From: Nitrospirota bacterium
Lineage (GTDB): Bacteria; Nitrospirota; Thermodesulfovibrionia; Thermodesulfovibrionales; Dissulfurispiraceae
Length of the DNA stretch: 38,211 nucleotides
NCBI GenBank assembly: GCA_009773415.1
Contig: WSNO01000030.1
Span: 1-38,211, forward strand
Direction: 5' to 3'
Shown here: positions 2,694-14,183 of the stretch, one piece after another
How positions within the stretch are numbered: position 1 is the first letter of the stretch
How the letters are laid out: each line of letters opens with the position of its first letter
Program-made: the position numbers and the translations under genes
Notes under the pieces: model-generated
Databases searched by the model: none
Seen by the model: only the letters and a program-made list of their open reading frames with translations
What the model was told of the DNA's origin: nothing

Positions 2694-3026
2694 ATGTTGC
2701 TTGACGTAAACATTGACGGCGCTTCGGAGACATTTCAGATTGCTGATGCCTATCGTCCCGATCTTTCGGCAATTTCAGCGCGGATTGAACAATTGGCAAA
2801 CACCAAGGGACTCAGCGTTGCATCTCTTGATATGAGCGGGCTGATTCAGGCCATGATCAAGGGAATTGCCGGCTGTGAGCGCGGATGCCCTGCGGATGCA
2901 AAGGGGCTCACTGCCAGAGGATACAAAGGGTTTGAGCTTAACTATGTAGAGGGCGGGATTTTGACTGCACGATCTGTGGTCGGAAGCGGCAACCGGCTGA
3001 CGGTCAAAATGTTTCCTGATTTTTGA
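2694..3026 (+). CDS. Conserved-looking hypothetical protein, 110 aa
   Basis: I do not recognise this family. The gene is convincing because CAGGAGG lies 8 bases before ATG and because it fills the space between the tRNA terminator and the convergent nuclease gene. The protein is soluble, with no signal peptide or membrane segment. It has an amphipathic helix-rich middle (LSAISARIEQLANTKGL) and a short loop with two cysteines (GCERGCPADAKG, about residues 55-66) that could bind metal or form a disulfide. The C-terminus is predicted beta (ELNYVEGGILTARSVVG). No function is proposed. Confidence 0.7.
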   Translation: MLLDVNIDGASETFQIADAYRPDLSAISARIEQLANTKGLSVASLDMSGLIQAMIKGIAGCERGCPADAKGLTARGYKGFELNYVEGGILTARSVVGSGNRLTVKMFPDF

Positions 3027-3053
3027 TACCGTCCGGGTCGCGGAAAAATCTCG

Positions 3054-3539
3054 CTATCGGAGAAGCCTGTTAGCCCAAGACATAAATTCGGCAAGGCTGA
3101 AAACCTGAATGTTCTTTGCAGTCCCTGCTGCGTACTTACTTTTTTCAGCACACTCCCGGAGCCATCTGAGTGCTCCATCCTTGAATCCGCCCCCGTCGAT
3201 AATAATAACGATTCGGTCTTCCGGCATCGCTTCGACAGCATTTAAGTATAGATACGGCAGTTTTTCATCAACCGACCCGGCAGACTGCTGCCACTTGCAT
3301 TCAATACGCATGGTAAAGCCGTGTCGCTCCGATATCGCCAGAAACTCCGTGGTGCCGCTATGCCCATAAATTGAAACATACGGTGCATTTGTCAACAGTA
3401 ACTCCTTGCCGTACAGATCCAGCCGGTCTTTCCATTGCTTGTATTTGACGAGCTGAAACCCCTTGGCAAGAAATATCTCCTGAACCGTCTTCTCCAGAAG
3501 GTTTCCTCCAATGTTCGCTAAAGCGCCCTGCTTTTTCAC
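3054..3539 (-). CDS. Solitary PD-(D/E)XK superfamily nuclease
   Basis: 161 aa with the layout of a minimal PD-(D/E)XK nuclease: an N-terminal helix with a conserved-type Gly and Glu (NIGGNLLEKTVQEIF, residues 9-23), an acidic residue in a strand (E65 in TTEFLAI) and the E-x-K strand RIECKWQ (E80, K82). Then follows SVDEKLPYLYLNA, a pattern I associate with phage and restriction-like nucleases of this superfamily. No methyltransferase, specificity subunit or helicase is adjacent, so it is not an obvious restriction system. The start is GTG at 3537-3539. It lies between core genes and reads opposite to the signalling operon, across a 177-bp gap from that operon's promoter. DNA repair, phage-derived or defence roles are all possible. 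Confidence 0.65.
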   Translation of the reverse strand: MKKQGALANIGGNLLEKTVQEIFLAKGFQLVKYKQWKDRLDLYGKELLLTNAPYVSIYGHSGTTEFLAISERHGFTMRIECKWQQSAGSVDEKLPYLYLNAVEAMPEDRIVIIIDGGGFKDGALRWLRECAEKSKYAAGTAKNIQVFSLAEFMSWANRLLR

Positions 3540-3716: not shown

Positions 3717-3745
3717 TTTACACATAACAATGCTTGTATGATAAT
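3717..3745 (+). promoter_or_regulatory. Sigma70-like promoter of the CHASE2-PP2C operon
   Basis: TTTACA (3717-3722) and GATAAT (3740-3745) are separated by exactly 17 bp; each hexamer has one mismatch to consensus. The predicted start point, about 3752, lies beyond the ATG codons at 3738 and 3744. This favours the ATG at 3771 as the true start of the downstream gene, with a very short leader. Confidence 0.55.
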
Positions 3746-3770
3746 GTATCTGCATATTGACAAACGTCAT

Positions 3771-5966
3771 ATGAAACGATTTTCCCTGATAAACAGTCTT
3801 CTGCTCGCGGTTCTCGCGGTGGCCGTCATAGCGGCTCTCGTGGCCGCATGGGAGCCGATTGAGCGACTTGAATTGAAGCTCTATGACCTGCGCGCATCAC
3901 TCACCTCAAAAAGCAGCCTTACATCTGTTGTTATTGTCAGCATTGATCAGGAGAGCGCAAACCGCCTCGGTGGCTGGCCGTGGCCGAGAACCTATTTTGC
4001 TCAGGCGATTCATCAGTTGCAGGAGCGCGGCGCGAAACAGATCGGCCTCTCGGTCCTTTATGCTGAAAATGATCCGAACCCCGGTCTGTGGGAAATTCGG
4101 GACATCATTCGCAAAATAGAGACCGACCCCGGCTTGTTACGTCCCGGGCAAATCACTGCGCTGTTTCCACAACTGCAGGAAACCGAAAAACGGCAGATAC
4201 GAAAAGCCATCGTCAGCTCATCACTTTCAGCCCTCAGGAATGTTGTTCTCCCGCTCCTGAAAGAAGCGGAAAAGCGGATTGACTCCGACACTGCGCTCCT
4301 CAGCGCCCTTGCCGCCGCGCCGAATGTTGTTCAGCCGATAGCCTTTATTCTTGGAGATGGCGGAGCCAAAAGAAATCCTCCTGTTCCGGACTATCTTCAG
4401 CGCAATTCTCTTCCGGCCAGCGGAACAGAACGATTCAGCACGTCTGATACGCTGTCGGCTCCACTGCCGGAGTATGCACGGCTTGCGGCTGCTCTCGGAC
4501 ATATCAATGCCTTGCGCGACTCTGACGGCATCGTCAGAAGCGATCTCCTTTTTATTGCCTTCAACAACAGCCTTTATCCGTCTTTCGGCCTGCAGCTCGC
4601 TCTGAAGGAGCTGAATCTGTCGCTTCATGATGTCAGGATCGAAGAAAACCGGGTTATCCTCGGCGACCGTATCCTTCCGCTGATTGAAGGCAAGAAAGTC
4701 CAGATTGTTCCGCGCACGGCATCAGCATATCCCATCGTATCGTTTGCCGATCTTGTTGACGGAAAGGTTGATGCCAATGCATTCAGAAACAAGATCGTCC
4801 TTATCGGGCACCGCCACAGCATGCCGCTTGAGATGCTCCCCGCTCAGCCGGTCGGCATGCTGCCTTCCGTTGATGCCATAGCACATGTTGTCGACGTTGT
4901 TCTGAGCAAATCATTCGTGAGCCGGCCGGCGTGGGCGGTTGCCGCCGAGGCCTCTGTCATTGCCCTTCTTGCGCTGATGCTTGCTGCTTTCTGGAGCGCA
5001 CGGCTGCAGCTGGCGCTTATCACCTCCCTTGCCATCCTCTTCATATGGACCGCCATATCTTTTTCGCTCTTCCTGACTCAGGGTGTGTGGTTAAAAATTG
5101 CACATCCGATGGTGTTCTTCGCGCTGGCGCTCGGAGTGCTCTTCATCCGTACTGCATTGGTGCCGCAGCGTTCCGAAGATGCTGTCGGTTCGGAATTTTT
5201 CGATACCACTGACTTCAGGGTTCGCTTTGCGGCAAAAACGGATACCGGAATGGTGCGCGATCGGAATGAAGACAGCTACTGCGCAGACAAACATCTCGGA
5301 CTGCTCGCCGTTGCCGATGGGGTGGGCGGCCGCGCATCCGGAGCGGTCGCAAGCCGAATGACCGCGGACCTCGTTACTGAAAACCTCAAAAAAGGCTTTC
5401 CGGACGTCTCTGATGCCGTCAAACTAACGCGCTCCGATCTGTCCGAAACAACAAAGTCCCTCGGCATGGCGGTTATGGCAGCAAACAAAAGCGTTCACGC
5501 GACGGCTGAGCTCAATCCGCAACTCCGGAATATGGGGACCACGCTTACCGCCATGCTGTTTGACGGCAACCGGGCAAGCATCGCCCATGTGGGGGACTGC
5601 AGAGCCTACCTCATTCGCCATATTTCCATAGAGCAGCTGACCGACGATCACACGGTGGCGGTCGAGCATTCAAAAAGAGGGCTTTCAGAAGACATGGCTC
5701 AAATGCGCCACGTGCTGACCAGAGCAATCGGCATTACGCCGGACATTGTTCCCGATGTTGATGAACTTACCCTTACAGATGGCGATATCCTCCTCATCTG
5801 CTCAGACGGGCTTTTCAACATGGTATCTGACGGTGAGATTCTGGCGGTTGTCAAAAGCACGGGCGATCCGTTCCGGGCCTGCACCCGCCTCGTAGAGCTC
5901 GCAAACAGCAACGGTGGTCACGACAACACAACCGTAGTTGTTGCATATATTGAGAAAAGACGTTAA
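3771..5966 (+). CDS. CHASE2 sensor domain fused to PP2C-type Ser/Thr phosphatase
   Basis: 731 aa from the ATG at 3771 (numbers below count from the longer frame at 3738). TM1 (about 15-37) leads into an extracytoplasmic CHASE2 domain (about 45-390; IVSIDQESANRLGGWPWPR, ALRDSDGIVRSD, GKIVLIG-like NKIVLIGHRH). Three membrane helices follow (about 398-418, 424-446, 456-474), then a cytoplasmic PP2C/Stp domain (about 495-740). The metal ligands are present: RNEDS (E511), VADGVGG (D527), CSDGLF (D690) and GGHDNTT (D729). PP2C enzymes are Mn/Mg-dependent and reverse Hanks-type kinase phosphorylation. CHASE2 usually sits on kinases or cyclases, so its fusion to a phosphatase is notable. It is first in an operon with the FHA and kinase genes. 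Confidence 0.9.
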   Translation: MKRFSLINSLLLAVLAVAVIAALVAAWEPIERLELKLYDLRASLTSKSSLTSVVIVSIDQESANRLGGWPWPRTYFAQAIHQLQERGAKQIGLSVLYAENDPNPGLWEIRDIIRKIETDPGLLRPGQITALFPQLQETEKRQIRKAIVSSSLSALRNVVLPLLKEAEKRIDSDTALLSALAAAPNVVQPIAFILGDGGAKRNPPVPDYLQRNSLPASGTERFSTSDTLSAPLPEYARLAAALGHINALRDSDGIVRSDLLFIAFNNSLYPSFGLQLALKELNLSLHDVRIEENRVILGDRILPLIEGKKVQIVPRTASAYPIVSFADLVDGKVDANAFRNKIVLIGHRHSMPLEMLPAQPVGMLPSVDAIAHVVDVVLSKSFVSRPAWAVAAEASVIALLALMLAAFWSARLQLALITSLAILFIWTAISFSLFLTQGVWLKIAHPMVFFALALGVLFIRTALVPQRSEDAVGSEFFDTTDFRVRFAAKTDTGMVRDRNEDSYCADKHLGLLAVADGVGGRASGAVASRMTADLVTENLKKGFPDVSDAVKLTRSDLSETTKSLGMAVMAANKSVHATAELNPQLRNMGTTLTAMLFDGNRASIAHVGDCRAYLIRHISIEQLTDDHTVAVEHSKRGLSEDMAQMRHVLTRAIGITPDIVPDVDELTLTDGDILLICSDGLFNMVSDGEILAVVKSTGDPFRACTRLVELANSNGGHDNTTVVVAYIEKRR

Positions 5967-6001
5967 GCTTGTCCAGAGTGCGGAATAAAGGAGGATAAAG
6001 C

Positions 6002-6727
6002 ATGGCTAAGCTGGTTCTCAGATTCAAAGATGCTGTCCTGAAAGAACTCACGATTGAGAAAGACCATGTAATGCTCGGCAGAAAGCCGGAAAACGATCTT
6101 GCGATCGATAATCTTGCAGTATCAGGGTACCACGCCAAGATCCTCAGAGAAAATGACCAGTATGTCCTTGAAGACATGGGCAGCCTGAACGGCACATACG
6201 TCAACGGTGAGCGCATCACCCGCCGCACACTCAAAAGCGGCGAGCAGATTCTCATCGGCAAGCATACCATTGAATTTATCGCTCCGGAAGTAAAGGTGGA
6301 AGAACCCGCTCAGCGCCCGAAAGCCATGGATGAGACCGTCGTGCTCGACCCGCGCCTGCAGCAGCAGCTCCTCGGCCGCGTGGTGCCGGAACATCGCGGG
6401 GCAGCGATCAGCCCTGAAAAGTCAGATGTTCTCGGCGGCTTTGTGGTGATTGAAGGCTCCAGTGAAAAGAAGGAATTCGAAATGCGTGATCGTGTGACCA
6501 CAATCGGAAAAGATTCATCAGCCAGCATCCGCCTTCGCGGTTTCTTTACGCCGAAGATTGTCGCTCTCGTGAACCGGAGAAAGGAAGGCTACTTCATCAG
6601 CCCTGCGGCAAAAAACAAGCTCCCCAAGGTTAACGGGATTGAGATTGCAGAGCGATACGACCTCAAGGACGGTGATATTGTGGAAGTTCCGGGCCTGAAG
6701 CTTCAGTTTTACGTCAAGGGAGCTTAA
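6002..6727 (+). CDS. Double FHA-domain protein
   Basis: 241 aa, soluble. The N-terminal FHA domain (about 5-93) has the full phosphothreonine-binding set: GRKPENDL (26-33), SGYHAKI (41-47) and SLNGTYVNGERI (61-72). A linker (about 94-144) contains DETVVLD at 110-116, a threonine motif reminiscent of phosphorylated segments that FHA domains bind in cis, as in GarA/OdhI proteins. The C-terminal half (about 145-241) looks like a second, degenerate FHA fold (TTIGKDSSASIRLRG, KVNGIEIAERYDLKDGD) missing the Ser/His core. An AAAGGAGG ribosome site precedes ATG. It lies 35 bp after the phosphatase and 9 bp before the kinase. It is probably their shared adaptor or substrate. Confidence 0.92.
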   Translation: MAKLVLRFKDAVLKELTIEKDHVMLGRKPENDLAIDNLAVSGYHAKILRENDQYVLEDMGSLNGTYVNGERITRRTLKSGEQILIGKHTIEFIAPEVKVEEPAQRPKAMDETVVLDPRLQQQLLGRVVPEHRGAAISPEKSDVLGGFVVIEGSSEKKEFEMRDRVTTIGKDSSASIRLRGFFTPKIVALVNRRKEGYFISPAAKNKLPKVNGIEIAERYDLKDGDIVEVPGLKLQFYVKGA

Positions 6728-6736
6728 CGGACCCGC

Positions 6737-8038
6737 ATGGATATCCGTCGACCAGACGTTCCCATTCCGCAGGTCGGCAAGTACGAAGTCGACCGGGAGA
6801 TCGGCAAAGGCGGCATGGGAACCGTCTATCTCGGCTTCGACCGCTATCAGAACCGTGATGTGGCTATCAAGGTTGCATCGACTGCCGACATCGCTGATGA
6901 GGCCTACCTCCAGAAGTTCCAGAAAATGTTTTTTAATGAGGCCCGCATCGCCGGAATGCTCAACCATCCGAACATTCTGCCGGTGTACGATGCTGGGGTT
7001 GACGGGCCGCACCACTACATCGTTATGGAGTATGTCCCCGGCAGCAAAACTCTGAAGGATCACTGCAAGCCGGATTCGCTCCTGCCGGTTGAGCAGGTGG
7101 TCGAAATCATCTTCAAATGCTGCAAAGCGCTCGACTATGCACATCGACAGGGCGTTATTCATCGCGACATCAAGCCCGGCAATATTCTGCTTACCGAAAC
7201 AATGGACATCAAGATAAGCGATTTCGGCATAGCGCAAATCGTGCGTTCCGACACGACCCAGCCGGCAGGGTTAATCGGCTCCCCTGCCTACATGTCTCCC
7301 GAACAGATACGGGAAGAGGTGCTTACACAGCAGACCGATTTCTTTTCACTCGGTGTTCTCATGTACGAATTGCTCACCGGTCGCTCGCCGTTTCATGCGG
7401 ATATCTTTTCCGGCGTCGTCCGCAAGATTCTGTATGAAGAGCCTCTCCCTTTGCGCTTTTACCGCTCAGATATACCGAAAACTCTTGAAATCATCGTCAC
7501 CAAGGCTCTCAGCAAGCGGCTCAATGATCGATACAGGACCGGCACACAGTTCGCCACTGATATCAGCCTCACCTACATCAATCTCAAGGAATCCGAGGAG
7601 AAGATTGATCAGACTGAAAAGTTCAATATTCTCCGGAAGCTGACCTTCTTTCGTGAGTTCATCGATGGTGAAATATGGGAAGTACTCCGAGCCATGGTCT
7701 GGCGAGAATATCCGCCGAATGCGCGAATCGTCACAGAGGGATCGGTGGATGAAACCTTTTACATCATCGTCAATGGCCAGGTCTCTGTCTGCAAGGCAGA
7801 AAAAAACGTGGCGGTTCTGGTCGAAGGTGGCTGCTTCGGAGAAATGGGTTATCTGACCAAGGAAAAGCGCACCGCCAGCATTCTCTCGCTTACGGATGTT
7901 GTCCTGCTCGAAATGAACAGTTCCGCGCTCGAACAGGCGTCGCCCGGCTGTCAGCTCCGCTTCCACAAAGTCTTTCTGAAAACCCTGCTGGAGCGCCTTA
8001 CTGAATCCGCCGACAAGTCCGGAAGGGCTTATCCGTAA
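6737..8038 (+). CDS. Hanks-type Ser/Thr protein kinase with C-terminal cyclic nucleotide-binding domain
   Basis: 433 aa. Kinase domain about 15-285: glycine loop GKGGMGTV (23-30), ATP-binding Lys45 in VAIKV, the alphaC Glu in FFNEAR, catalytic HRDIKPGN (142-149), DFG (162-164) and activation segment with GSPAYMSPEQ. Residues about 300-420 form a cNMP-binding domain with a phosphate-binding-cassette-like stretch GGCFGEMGYLTKEKRTAS (364-381) that keeps Gly-Glu and an Arg. There is no transmembrane helix and no PASTA region, so the kinase is cytosolic. Its likely input is a cyclic nucleotide (inference), while the partner phosphatase senses outside. It ends the operon. Confidence 0.93.
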   Translation: MDIRRPDVPIPQVGKYEVDREIGKGGMGTVYLGFDRYQNRDVAIKVASTADIADEAYLQKFQKMFFNEARIAGMLNHPNILPVYDAGVDGPHHYIVMEYVPGSKTLKDHCKPDSLLPVEQVVEIIFKCCKALDYAHRQGVIHRDIKPGNILLTETMDIKISDFGIAQIVRSDTTQPAGLIGSPAYMSPEQIREEVLTQQTDFFSLGVLMYELLTGRSPFHADIFSGVVRKILYEEPLPLRFYRSDIPKTLEIIVTKALSKRLNDRYRTGTQFATDISLTYINLKESEEKIDQTEKFNILRKLTFFREFIDGEIWEVLRAMVWREYPPNARIVTEGSVDETFYIIVNGQVSVCKAEKNVAVLVEGGCFGEMGYLTKEKRTASILSLTDVVLLEMNSSALEQASPGCQLRFHKVFLKTLLERLTESADKSGRAYP

Positions 8039-8528: not shown

Positions 8529-8571
8529 GGCAAAGTAGAAATGTCCGGTTTTCGGCAAAGTAGAAATGTCC
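8529..8571 (+). repeat. Solo IS end: two tandem copies of an 18-bp motif
   Basis: GGCAAAGTAGAAATGTCC occurs at 8529-8546 and again at 8554-8571 (25-bp period). The same motif pair, slightly diverged, lies just before the ISNCY-like transposase fragment at 37311-37352. This identifies it as the terminal transposase-binding region of that element family. No transposase remains beside this copy. Confidence 0.6.
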
Positions 8572-8737
8572 AGATTATAAGGCAACCGACCAAGCTGGTT
8601 TTTTACGCGCCCTTGTCTTATAACGGCTTGGAGGATTGGGGGAGCTTCTCTTCGTATTGCTGGCATACTGCTCAAAACAAAACGCCCCGCTCTGATGCCC
8701 CTGCGCCGGGCTATCTGCTCCCGCAATTTGGAATTGC

Positions 8738-12733: not shown

Positions 12734-12754
12734 TTTTTTGTGGAGGATTACCGA

Positions 12755-13865
12755 ATGATTACTCATGCAGAAATGCAGGAACATCTCAGAACGCTGAAAG
12801 AGCGTATTTCTTCGCTTCGAGGTTATCTTTGATGTCGCTCAACTGCAAAGTGAGCTTGATTTAATAGATCAGGATCTGACCAGAGAAGAGATATGGTCGG
12901 ATCCTGAAAAATCCAGAGATCTTCAGAAAAAAAAGACTCAGCTGAGCAATACGCTGCAACCGGTTGAAGAATCATATCGGAAAGCCGTATATCTTGAAGA
13001 ATCCCTTGATATTCTGACGGAAGATGGAGGTGACGTTTTTTTTGCAGAGTTTTTGGAAGAGATGAAGGAACTTGCACAAAAAATAGATTCTCTCGAATCA
13101 CGACTTCTCCTCTCTGGAGAAACAGATCACAACAACGCTATCGTCATCATTCATCCCGGTGCAGGCGGCACTGAAAGCCAGGACTGGGCTCAGATGCTGA
13201 TGCGTATGTATTTAAGATGGGCTGAAATTCATGGATATTCTACTGAAATAATTGATCATCAGGCTGGGGAAGAAGCCGGTATCAAAGGCGTTACTTTCAG
13301 TGTCTCAGGAGCCTTTGCATATGGCTATCTCAAGGCGGAAGCCGGCGTACACCGTTTGGTACGCATTTCACCATTTGATGCCAATAAACGCCGCCATACT
13401 TCTTTCAGCGCTGTACTCGTCTATCCTGAAATAGAAGACGACGTCGCTATTGAAATTCGGGAAGAGGATCTGAAAATAGATACCTTTCGTGCATCGGGAG
13501 CAGGCGGCCAGCATGTAAACAAGGTTTCATCCGCTATCAGACTGACTCATATTCCATCCGGCATTATCATTACCTGTCAGAGTGAGCGTTCCCAGCTCAG
13601 AAACCGTGAGTTGGCGATGAAAGTTCTAAAATCACGATTGTACGATCAGCAGGTTCGCTCGCGCGAAAAAAAACTGGATGATATTGTCGGCGATAAGAAA
13701 GATATCGCATGGGGAAGCCAGATTCGTTCATATATCATGCAACCTTACAGACTTATCAAGGATCATAGAACAAATGTTGAATCCGGAAATGTTGACGCTG
13801 TGCTGGATGGTGGAATAGATATTTTCATTCAGGGATATCTGAAAGCAAATATTTTAAAAAAATAG
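12755..13865 (+). CDS. prfB: Peptide chain release factor 2, made by programmed +1 frameshift
   Basis: RF2 recognises UGA/UAA stop codons. Translation starts at ATG 12755 after TGGAGGA, reads 25 codons to an in-frame TGA at 12830-12832, and resumes in the +1 frame at GAT 12831, giving 369 aa (E. coli RF2: 365). The downstream part alone forms an open frame with an internal ATG at 13053 that is not the real start. Stop-codon-recognition tripeptide SPF falls at about residues 205-207 and the peptidyl-hydrolysis GGQ at about 250-252, the same numbering as in E. coli. It follows lnt closely. Confidence 0.96.
12819..12832 (+). promoter_or_regulatory. prfB autoregulatory frameshift site
   Basis: GAGGTTAT precedes CTT TGA, the conserved slippery CTT followed by a poorly terminated UGA. 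The AGG acts as an internal Shine-Dalgarno-like stimulator just upstream, as in other bacteria. When RF2 is scarce, the ribosome shifts +1 on CTT and completes RF2. The stimulator here is shorter than the E. coli AGGGGG. Confidence 0.9.
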
Positions 13866-14183
13866 CTTACAGTACTATCTTCTTCTTTATATTAATAAGA
13901 AAAAGACAGTAGTAGTATTAGACGCAGTGAATTTGTGAAAAACCTCGGGAAGGCATTGAAGAAGCAGAAACAATTCTTTCAGTGATTTTTGCGGCTTCTT
14001 TCACATTTATCCACAGCTACCGAAAGGACAAAGGATATTCATAATTTTTTAACAGGCGACTGAACAGTTATTGCTCAGATTTTTCGCATTGAGCTATAAT
14101 GAGCAGTGCTTTGAAAAAAGTTTTTAACAATTGTGAAAAATATGTTGATAAACATAAATAAAACAACGGGATTGTTATCATAA
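13866..14183. other. Probable chromosomal replication origin (oriC) upstream of dnaA
   Basis: 318 bp of AT-rich non-coding DNA between prfB and dnaA. DnaA-box candidates: a perfect TTATCCACA at 14007-14015, TGTGAAAAA at 13934-13942 and 14132-14140 (reverse strand TTTTTCACA, fitting TTWTNCACA), and TGTTGATAA at 14143-14151 (reverse TTATCAACA, one mismatch). An AT-rich run around 14036-14055 could be the unwinding element. An imperfect inverted repeat (13873-13887 / 13897-13911, 13 of 15 pairs) may end prfB transcription. The dnaA-dnaN-gyrB order supports the call; the boxes could also serve dnaA autoregulation. Confidence 0.6.
14071..14100 (+). promoter_or_regulatory. Probable dnaA promoter
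   Basis: TTGCTC (14071-14076), 18-bp spacer, perfect TATAAT (14095-14100), followed by DnaA-box-like sites at 14132-14151 between promoter and start codon. This arrangement fits DnaA autorepression. Confidence 0.55.

Follow-up and report, generated by a model that had tools for sequence, protein, structure and literature searches.

A CHASE2-PP2C fusion in a Nitrospirota phosphorylation operon: apparent transfer of a sensor domain from kinase to phosphatase

In most descriptions of phosphorylation circuits it is the kinase that carries the sensor; what, then, is to be made of an operon in which the sensor domain is attached to the phosphatase? The operon lies in a 38,211 nucleotide contig of a Nitrospirota bacterium (WSNO01000030.1 of assembly GCA_009773415.1, family Dissulfurispiraceae; this whole stretch is called the window below) and contains three genes, head to tail on the plus strand and separated by 35 and 9 nt, which encode a CHASE2-PP2C protein, a protein with two forkhead-associated (FHA) folds and a soluble Hanks-type kinase with a cNMP-type domain. 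Trees and junction sequence show that the CHASE2-PP2C protein arose once, by the joining of the CHASE2/transmembrane (TM) part of a CHASE2-kinase to the downstream PP2C, and that the operon kinase comes from a separate kinase-cNMP lineage and replaces the old one. We think it probable, with some reserve, that the three proteins work together as a phosphorylation switch built around the FHA adaptor, with the outside sensor moved to the phosphatase. The features discussed are as follows (window coordinates, strand, description, basis).

3738..5966, plus strand: CHASE2-PP2C protein (P0001), 742 amino acids; TM1 ~17-35, extracytoplasmic CHASE2 ~38-395, three TM helices ~398-473, cytoplasmic Stp1-type PP2C 494-742 (Pfam/NCBIfam, hydropathy, structure model)
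5190..5225, plus strand: fusion junction, P0001 residues ~485-496 (junction alignment)
6002..6727, plus strand: FHA-FHA2 adaptor (P0002), 241 amino acids; FHA1 1-96, intact and GarA/OdhI-like; FHA2 142-239, without the phosphothreonine-binding residues
6329..6346, plus strand: linker motif DETVVL, P0002 residues 110-115, with candidate phosphoacceptor Thr112 (alignment of 33 relatives)
6737..8038, plus strand: Hanks-type Ser/Thr kinase with cNMP-type domain (P0003), 433 amino acids; kinase 12-277, C-terminal cNMP-type domain 299-424, no TM helix
7832..7885, plus strand: phosphate-binding-cassette-like motif CFGEMGYLTKEKRTASIL, P0003 residues 366-383, with Glu369 and an Arg (alignment)

P0001 matches the CHASE2 profile PF05226 (E=5e-46) and PP2C_2 (E=3e-17); its PP2C part also exceeds the cut-offs of PF13672 and PF00481, matches PstP 1txo (E 9e-34) and scores 204 bits against the Stp1-type model NF033484, which is below that model's full-protein cut-off of 230. 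The motifs with metal-binding Asp that mark Stp1/PrpC/PstP-type phosphatases are present, and the ligands D512, D527/G528, D690 and D729 are invariant across eight homologues. Hydropathy and the structure model place helices at 9-55, 398-420, 424-447 and 455-473, so that, as in CHASE2 sensors, a TM helix precedes the domain and a TM group follows it; with one helix before and three after, CHASE2 should lie outside the cell and PP2C inside. Within that model the CHASE2 part has low confidence (mean predicted local distance difference test score 62). Translation may start at Met12 (3771) instead of at 3738, since several homologues begin there. P0002 matches the FHA profile (E=1e-23), and P0003 matches Pkinase (E=5e-54) and cNMP_binding (E=4.5e-16), with the Hanks-type residues K45, E68, HRD 142-144, K146, N149 and DFG 162-164 all in place. 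An earlier note, made from the sequence alone, had described these three genes and their domains in this order and considered their catalytic residues complete; the open reading frames, the domain calls, the PP2C metal ligands and the kinase motifs all agree with it. Promoter- and terminator-like sites in the operon region are no more than expected by chance.

CHASE2-PP2C proteins occur in 9 of the 31 genomes of the window's family, spread over five genera. Among 296 sampled genomes of the phylum, full-length examples were confined to this family. When 84,980 species genomes were scanned with the CHASE2-PP2C alignment, the best 80 matches contained no fusion from beyond the family; whole-genome search of 37 of the organisms behind these matches found none with CHASE2 and PP2C in one frame, and no plasmid record covered the query. 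The order CHASE2-PP2C, FHA-FHA2, kinase-cNMP is kept in eight genomes, mostly with short gaps and far beyond chance (the FHA gene of locus L091 was located at 2774-3490). At the ninth locus (genome G296, L093 1-2195) the CHASE2-PP2C gene is followed directly by the cNMP part, and the FHA gene and kinase domain are missing, through either deletion or misassembly. The earlier note had proposed a search for co-occurrence with the partner genes and had named routine occurrence of the fusion without them as the outcome that would count against it; the full trio is present at eight of the nine loci, the ninth retains a cNMP remnant, and the fusion was never found without traces of its partners.

Three arrangements were found around the same FHA-FHA2 protein. 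Arrangement A is CHASE2-kinase, soluble PP2C, FHA-FHA2, and it is present in various families of Nitrospirota (in the window's own family in one genome, L094), as well as in Terriglobia (L120, Acidobacteriota), Deltaproteobacteria (L121) and Desulfobacteraceae (L226). Arrangement B, in several genomes of family f6, has a soluble PP2C followed by FHA-FHA2, beside a kinase-cNMP gene that in most cases is divergently oriented, and arrangement C is that of the window. Another family of the same order commonly has soluble kinase-cNMP proteins, and therefore only the phosphatase half of the operon is unusual. The pairing of a receptor kinase and a soluble phosphatase, which the earlier note took to be the usual bacterial pattern, is indeed what the relatives with arrangement A have, and its claim that the sensor here sits on the phosphatase is borne out by the same comparison. 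We note that family f6 also contains orphan kinase-cNMP genes (L037-L042), the nearest to the window's kinase, which read DFS for DFG and have no PP2C or FHA neighbours.

The nine CHASE2-PP2C sequences form one clade in the CHASE2 tree (100/100), nested within the CHASE2-kinases (99/99) and apart from the further CHASE2 proteins that these genomes encode; CHASE2-cyclases and CHASE2-HD-GYP proteins are thereby ruled out as the source of the domain, as are several independent fusions, since a single clade is found in all bootstraps. In the PP2C tree the fusion domains also form one clade (93/88), beside the PP2Cs of arrangement A. At the junction, a tail derived from a CHASE2-kinase (homologues E-A-D-x-I-E-T) abuts the first residues of a former soluble PP2C: CHASE2-kinases read '...EADSIETNKMLG...' at this position, soluble PP2Cs start like (M)LRLxxGxKTD, and the fusion proteins run from a kinase-type tail (e.g. 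AEIIENEE or MDLLETQD) directly into LRxVVGAKTD-like sequence. It is because of the trees together with this junction that we assign the fusion a single origin. The simplest history would be a deletion of the kinase linker and kinase domain that joined the CHASE2/TM part to the next gene. The kinase tree groups the operon kinases with other kinase-cNMP proteins, including the f6 orphans (100/100), separately from the CHASE2-kinases of the order (100/98), which rules out that the operon kinase is the old CHASE2-kinase minus its CHASE2 domain.

The genome of the window, estimated to be 100% complete, appears to retain a trace of the older state. Genome G182 of the same genus has arrangement C plus a second locus with CHASE2-kinase, PP2C and ScpA (L050). 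At the syntenic site of the window's genome (G000:C20:34000-48000, L089 5611-7882; ScpA 71% identical) there is a shortened, membrane-anchored kinase-domain protein without CHASE2, in which HRD has become HRA and DFG has become EFG, followed by PP2C and ScpA; judged by sequence it is a pseudokinase, apparently the decayed remnant of the CHASE2-kinase locus intact at L050. The operon appears to be the sole evident Hanks-kinase pathway of this genome, because a single intact Pkinase and a single FHA protein were detected in it, both in the operon. A further CHASE2 protein (L088 528-2585, G000:C52) has an HD-GYP-like C-terminal half and no cyclase match; in many relatives CHASE2 stands beside a class III cyclase domain.

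The protein on which the two enzymes would converge was called a double FHA in the earlier note. Profile-profile comparison identifies its second half as an FHA fold (probability 97.4%, E 1e-11), and model residues 143-241 match the KIF1A FHA domain (Z 14.6, root-mean-square deviation 1.8, 96 aligned residues); the description is right as to fold and does not extend to function, as the phosphothreonine-binding Arg, Ser, His and Asn are substituted in FHA2. Because of these substitutions, phosphothreonine binding should be a property of FHA1 only. FHA1 retains R27, S41, H44 and N63 in 32-33 of 33 relatives, like the intact domains of GarA and OdhI, and these two are among its nearest solved folds (Z about 17-18, 32% identity). 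The linker between the two domains is variable except around position 112, which is Thr in 31 of 33 FHA-FHA2 proteins from Nitrospirota, Acidobacteriota and deltaproteobacterial groups, within a pattern of acidic residue, x, Thr and hydrophobic residues. Thr112 is thus the likely phosphoacceptor. Phosphorylation of the FHA protein in this circuit is also likely, since no other FHA protein and no other intact Hanks kinase were detected in the genome and since this linker Thr is near-invariant. In identity to the G182 proteins FHA2 (87%) exceeds the kinase (81%), PP2C (59%) and CHASE2 (51%); no other module of the operon is so well conserved, which suggests that FHA2 carries the effector surface.

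In GarA a Thr motif that lies outside the FHA domain is phosphorylated; the protein binds its own phosphothreonine and is thereby switched off (PMC5448819). P0002 resembles GarA and OdhI, which work with PknB, PknG and PstP in Actinobacteria, in FHA1 structure and in having a Thr motif outside the FHA domain; it differs in having two FHA folds and a DET motif in the linker, where those proteins have a single FHA domain and ETTS at the N-terminus. Its NCBIfam OdhI and FhaB scores are below cut-off, and P0002 is not one of the GarA/OdhI regulators, though it may work in a similar way. By analogy, a GarA-like switch, in which FHA1 captures the phosphothreonine of its own protein, can be predicted for P0002.

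We therefore picture the circuit in the following way, in which the substrate, the Thr112 site, phosphothreonine capture by FHA1 and CHASE2 control of PP2C are what we infer. The soluble kinase would phosphorylate a residue of the FHA-FHA2 linker, most likely Thr112; FHA1 would bind the phosphorylated residue, either in cis as in GarA and OdhI or in trans, and this capture would alter binding at the conserved FHA2 face. The PP2C domain would take the phosphate off, at a rate set by an outside signal through CHASE2 and the TM helices. In an ancestral operon of CHASE2-kinase, PP2C and FHA-FHA2 the outside signal would have worked on phosphorylation; after deletion of the kinase domain had fused CHASE2 to PP2C it would work on dephosphorylation, with phosphorylation provided by the separate kinase-cNMP protein. 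Several points weigh against this picture. The 93/88 support of the PP2C clade is under the starred threshold, in the FHA tree the proteins of these operons do not resolve and one row from a CHASE2-kinase operon falls among them, loss of FHA and kinase would break the switch in G296, and the neighbourhood outside the trio varies between genomes and points to no target; phosphotransfer, phosphothreonine binding and CHASE2 signalling are all deduced from sequence. We are doubtful, and offer only tentatively, the stronger form in which the Hanks network has been cut to one inverted circuit of an outside-sensing phosphatase, a kinase with a ligand other than cAMP or cGMP, and a single FHA switch; if it is true, the environment erases phosphorylation rather than adding it.

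The role of the cNMP-type domain bears on a different reading, a two-input (AND/OR) logic gate with cyclic AMP or cyclic GMP acting on the kinase and the outside signal on PP2C. In the cassette CFGEMGYLTKEKRTASI both residues that contact cyclic nucleotides, Glu and Arg, are retained, as in PKG-like cassettes, and its RTAS resembles PKG, so P0003 is compatible with such ligands; class III cyclases are also present in 21 of the 31 family genomes, among them all eight other genomes with CHASE2-PP2C. However, neither class III (PF00211) nor class I (PF01295) cyclases were found in the window's genome, even at E<=10 (other cyclase classes were not searched), and in genus g7 (two operons and the G296 remnant) Asn replaces the cassette Arg in all three rows although the g7 genomes have cyclases. 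The family of cNMP-type domains, moreover, includes members that do not bind cyclic nucleotides. The case for a cyclic-nucleotide input to the kinase, which the earlier note had put forward, is therefore weak and so far unsupported, and we hold the logic gate to be unlikely.

It is likewise improbable, in our judgement, that the FHA protein is only a docking adaptor that brings the kinase or the phosphatase to other phosphoproteins and is not the main substrate. FHA domains often serve as adaptors, and FHA1 has all the residues for binding phosphothreonine, but the linker, variable elsewhere, has a near-invariant acidic-x-Thr-hydrophobic motif, which suggests that phosphorylation falls on the protein itself, and GarA, OdhI and Fha1 are precedents of FHA proteins as kinase substrates. 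Quite unlikely, finally, is the idea that CHASE2 is a membrane anchor that localises the phosphatase, leaving the kinase alone to set the switch. That CHASE2 is the least conserved module (in the G182 comparison above) and that the paralogous locus in the window's genome has lost it entirely would fit an anchor, but sensor domains likewise diverge fast, helices alone would suffice for anchoring, and an extracytoplasmic domain of ~360 residues with a conserved core is kept in all eight complete proteins.

In comparison with known systems, the operon of arrangement A is the closest: its CHASE2, PP2C and FHA-FHA2 are homologous and PP2C precedes FHA in both, but there CHASE2 belongs to the kinase and the phosphatase is soluble, whereas here CHASE2 is on the phosphatase and the kinase is of another lineage. 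The PpkA-PppA-Fha1 system likewise combines a Hanks kinase, a PP2C and an FHA substrate, with its sensor part on the kinase and its phosphatase soluble; it differs in being without CHASE2 and tied to a secretion system. In SiaABCD a sensor domain is on a PP2C-superfamily phosphatase, as in P0001, but that phosphatase is of SpoIIE type and acts on a STAS protein opposite a HATPase-type kinase, with no Hanks kinase or FHA protein. PppA, PpkA and FHA-1 are listed for Pseudomonas type VI secretion (PMC6213207), and a PP2C with a periplasmic sensory domain in Campylobacterota has been compared with SiaABCD (PMC9239204). CHASE2-Ser/Thr kinases have been described in cyanobacteria (PMC2176072), and bacterial kinases with cNMP domains in Planctomycetota (PMC11032199). 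PP2C-cNMP fusions of Deltaproteobacteria/Myxococcota (L133, L138, L141, L144, L150, L155, L183, L188) have the same domain set reshuffled, with the cNMP domain on the phosphatase and not on the kinase. A full-text literature search found no paper that joins CHASE2, PP2C and FHA; what is new here is CHASE2 on an Stp1-type PP2C with a Hanks kinase and an FHA adaptor, and an ancestral state kept in relatives. One fusion shifted the sensor to the opposing enzyme, formally reversing the sign of the input, and left the adaptor protein unchanged; the states before and after are preserved in relatives, even inside one family, and the junction can be read. This makes the operon a natural experiment on how far signalling circuits tolerate inversion, with few confounding kinases since this is apparently the only Hanks-kinase pathway left in the genome.

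Elsewhere in the window, two 23-nt direct repeats that resemble insertion-element ends (GGCAAAGTAGAAATGTCC...) lie downstream of the operon at 8529-8576, and Rfam search of the window gave only the tRNA. The prfB gene (12750-13865) has an in-frame TGA after CTT (GYL*), and its reading frame goes on in +1; this is the classical release factor 2 frameshift. The AT-rich region 13866-14183 upstream of dnaA-dnaN-gyrB contains three DnaA-box-like sites (13934, 14007 and 14132) and a change of sign of the GC skew, and is likely the replication origin.

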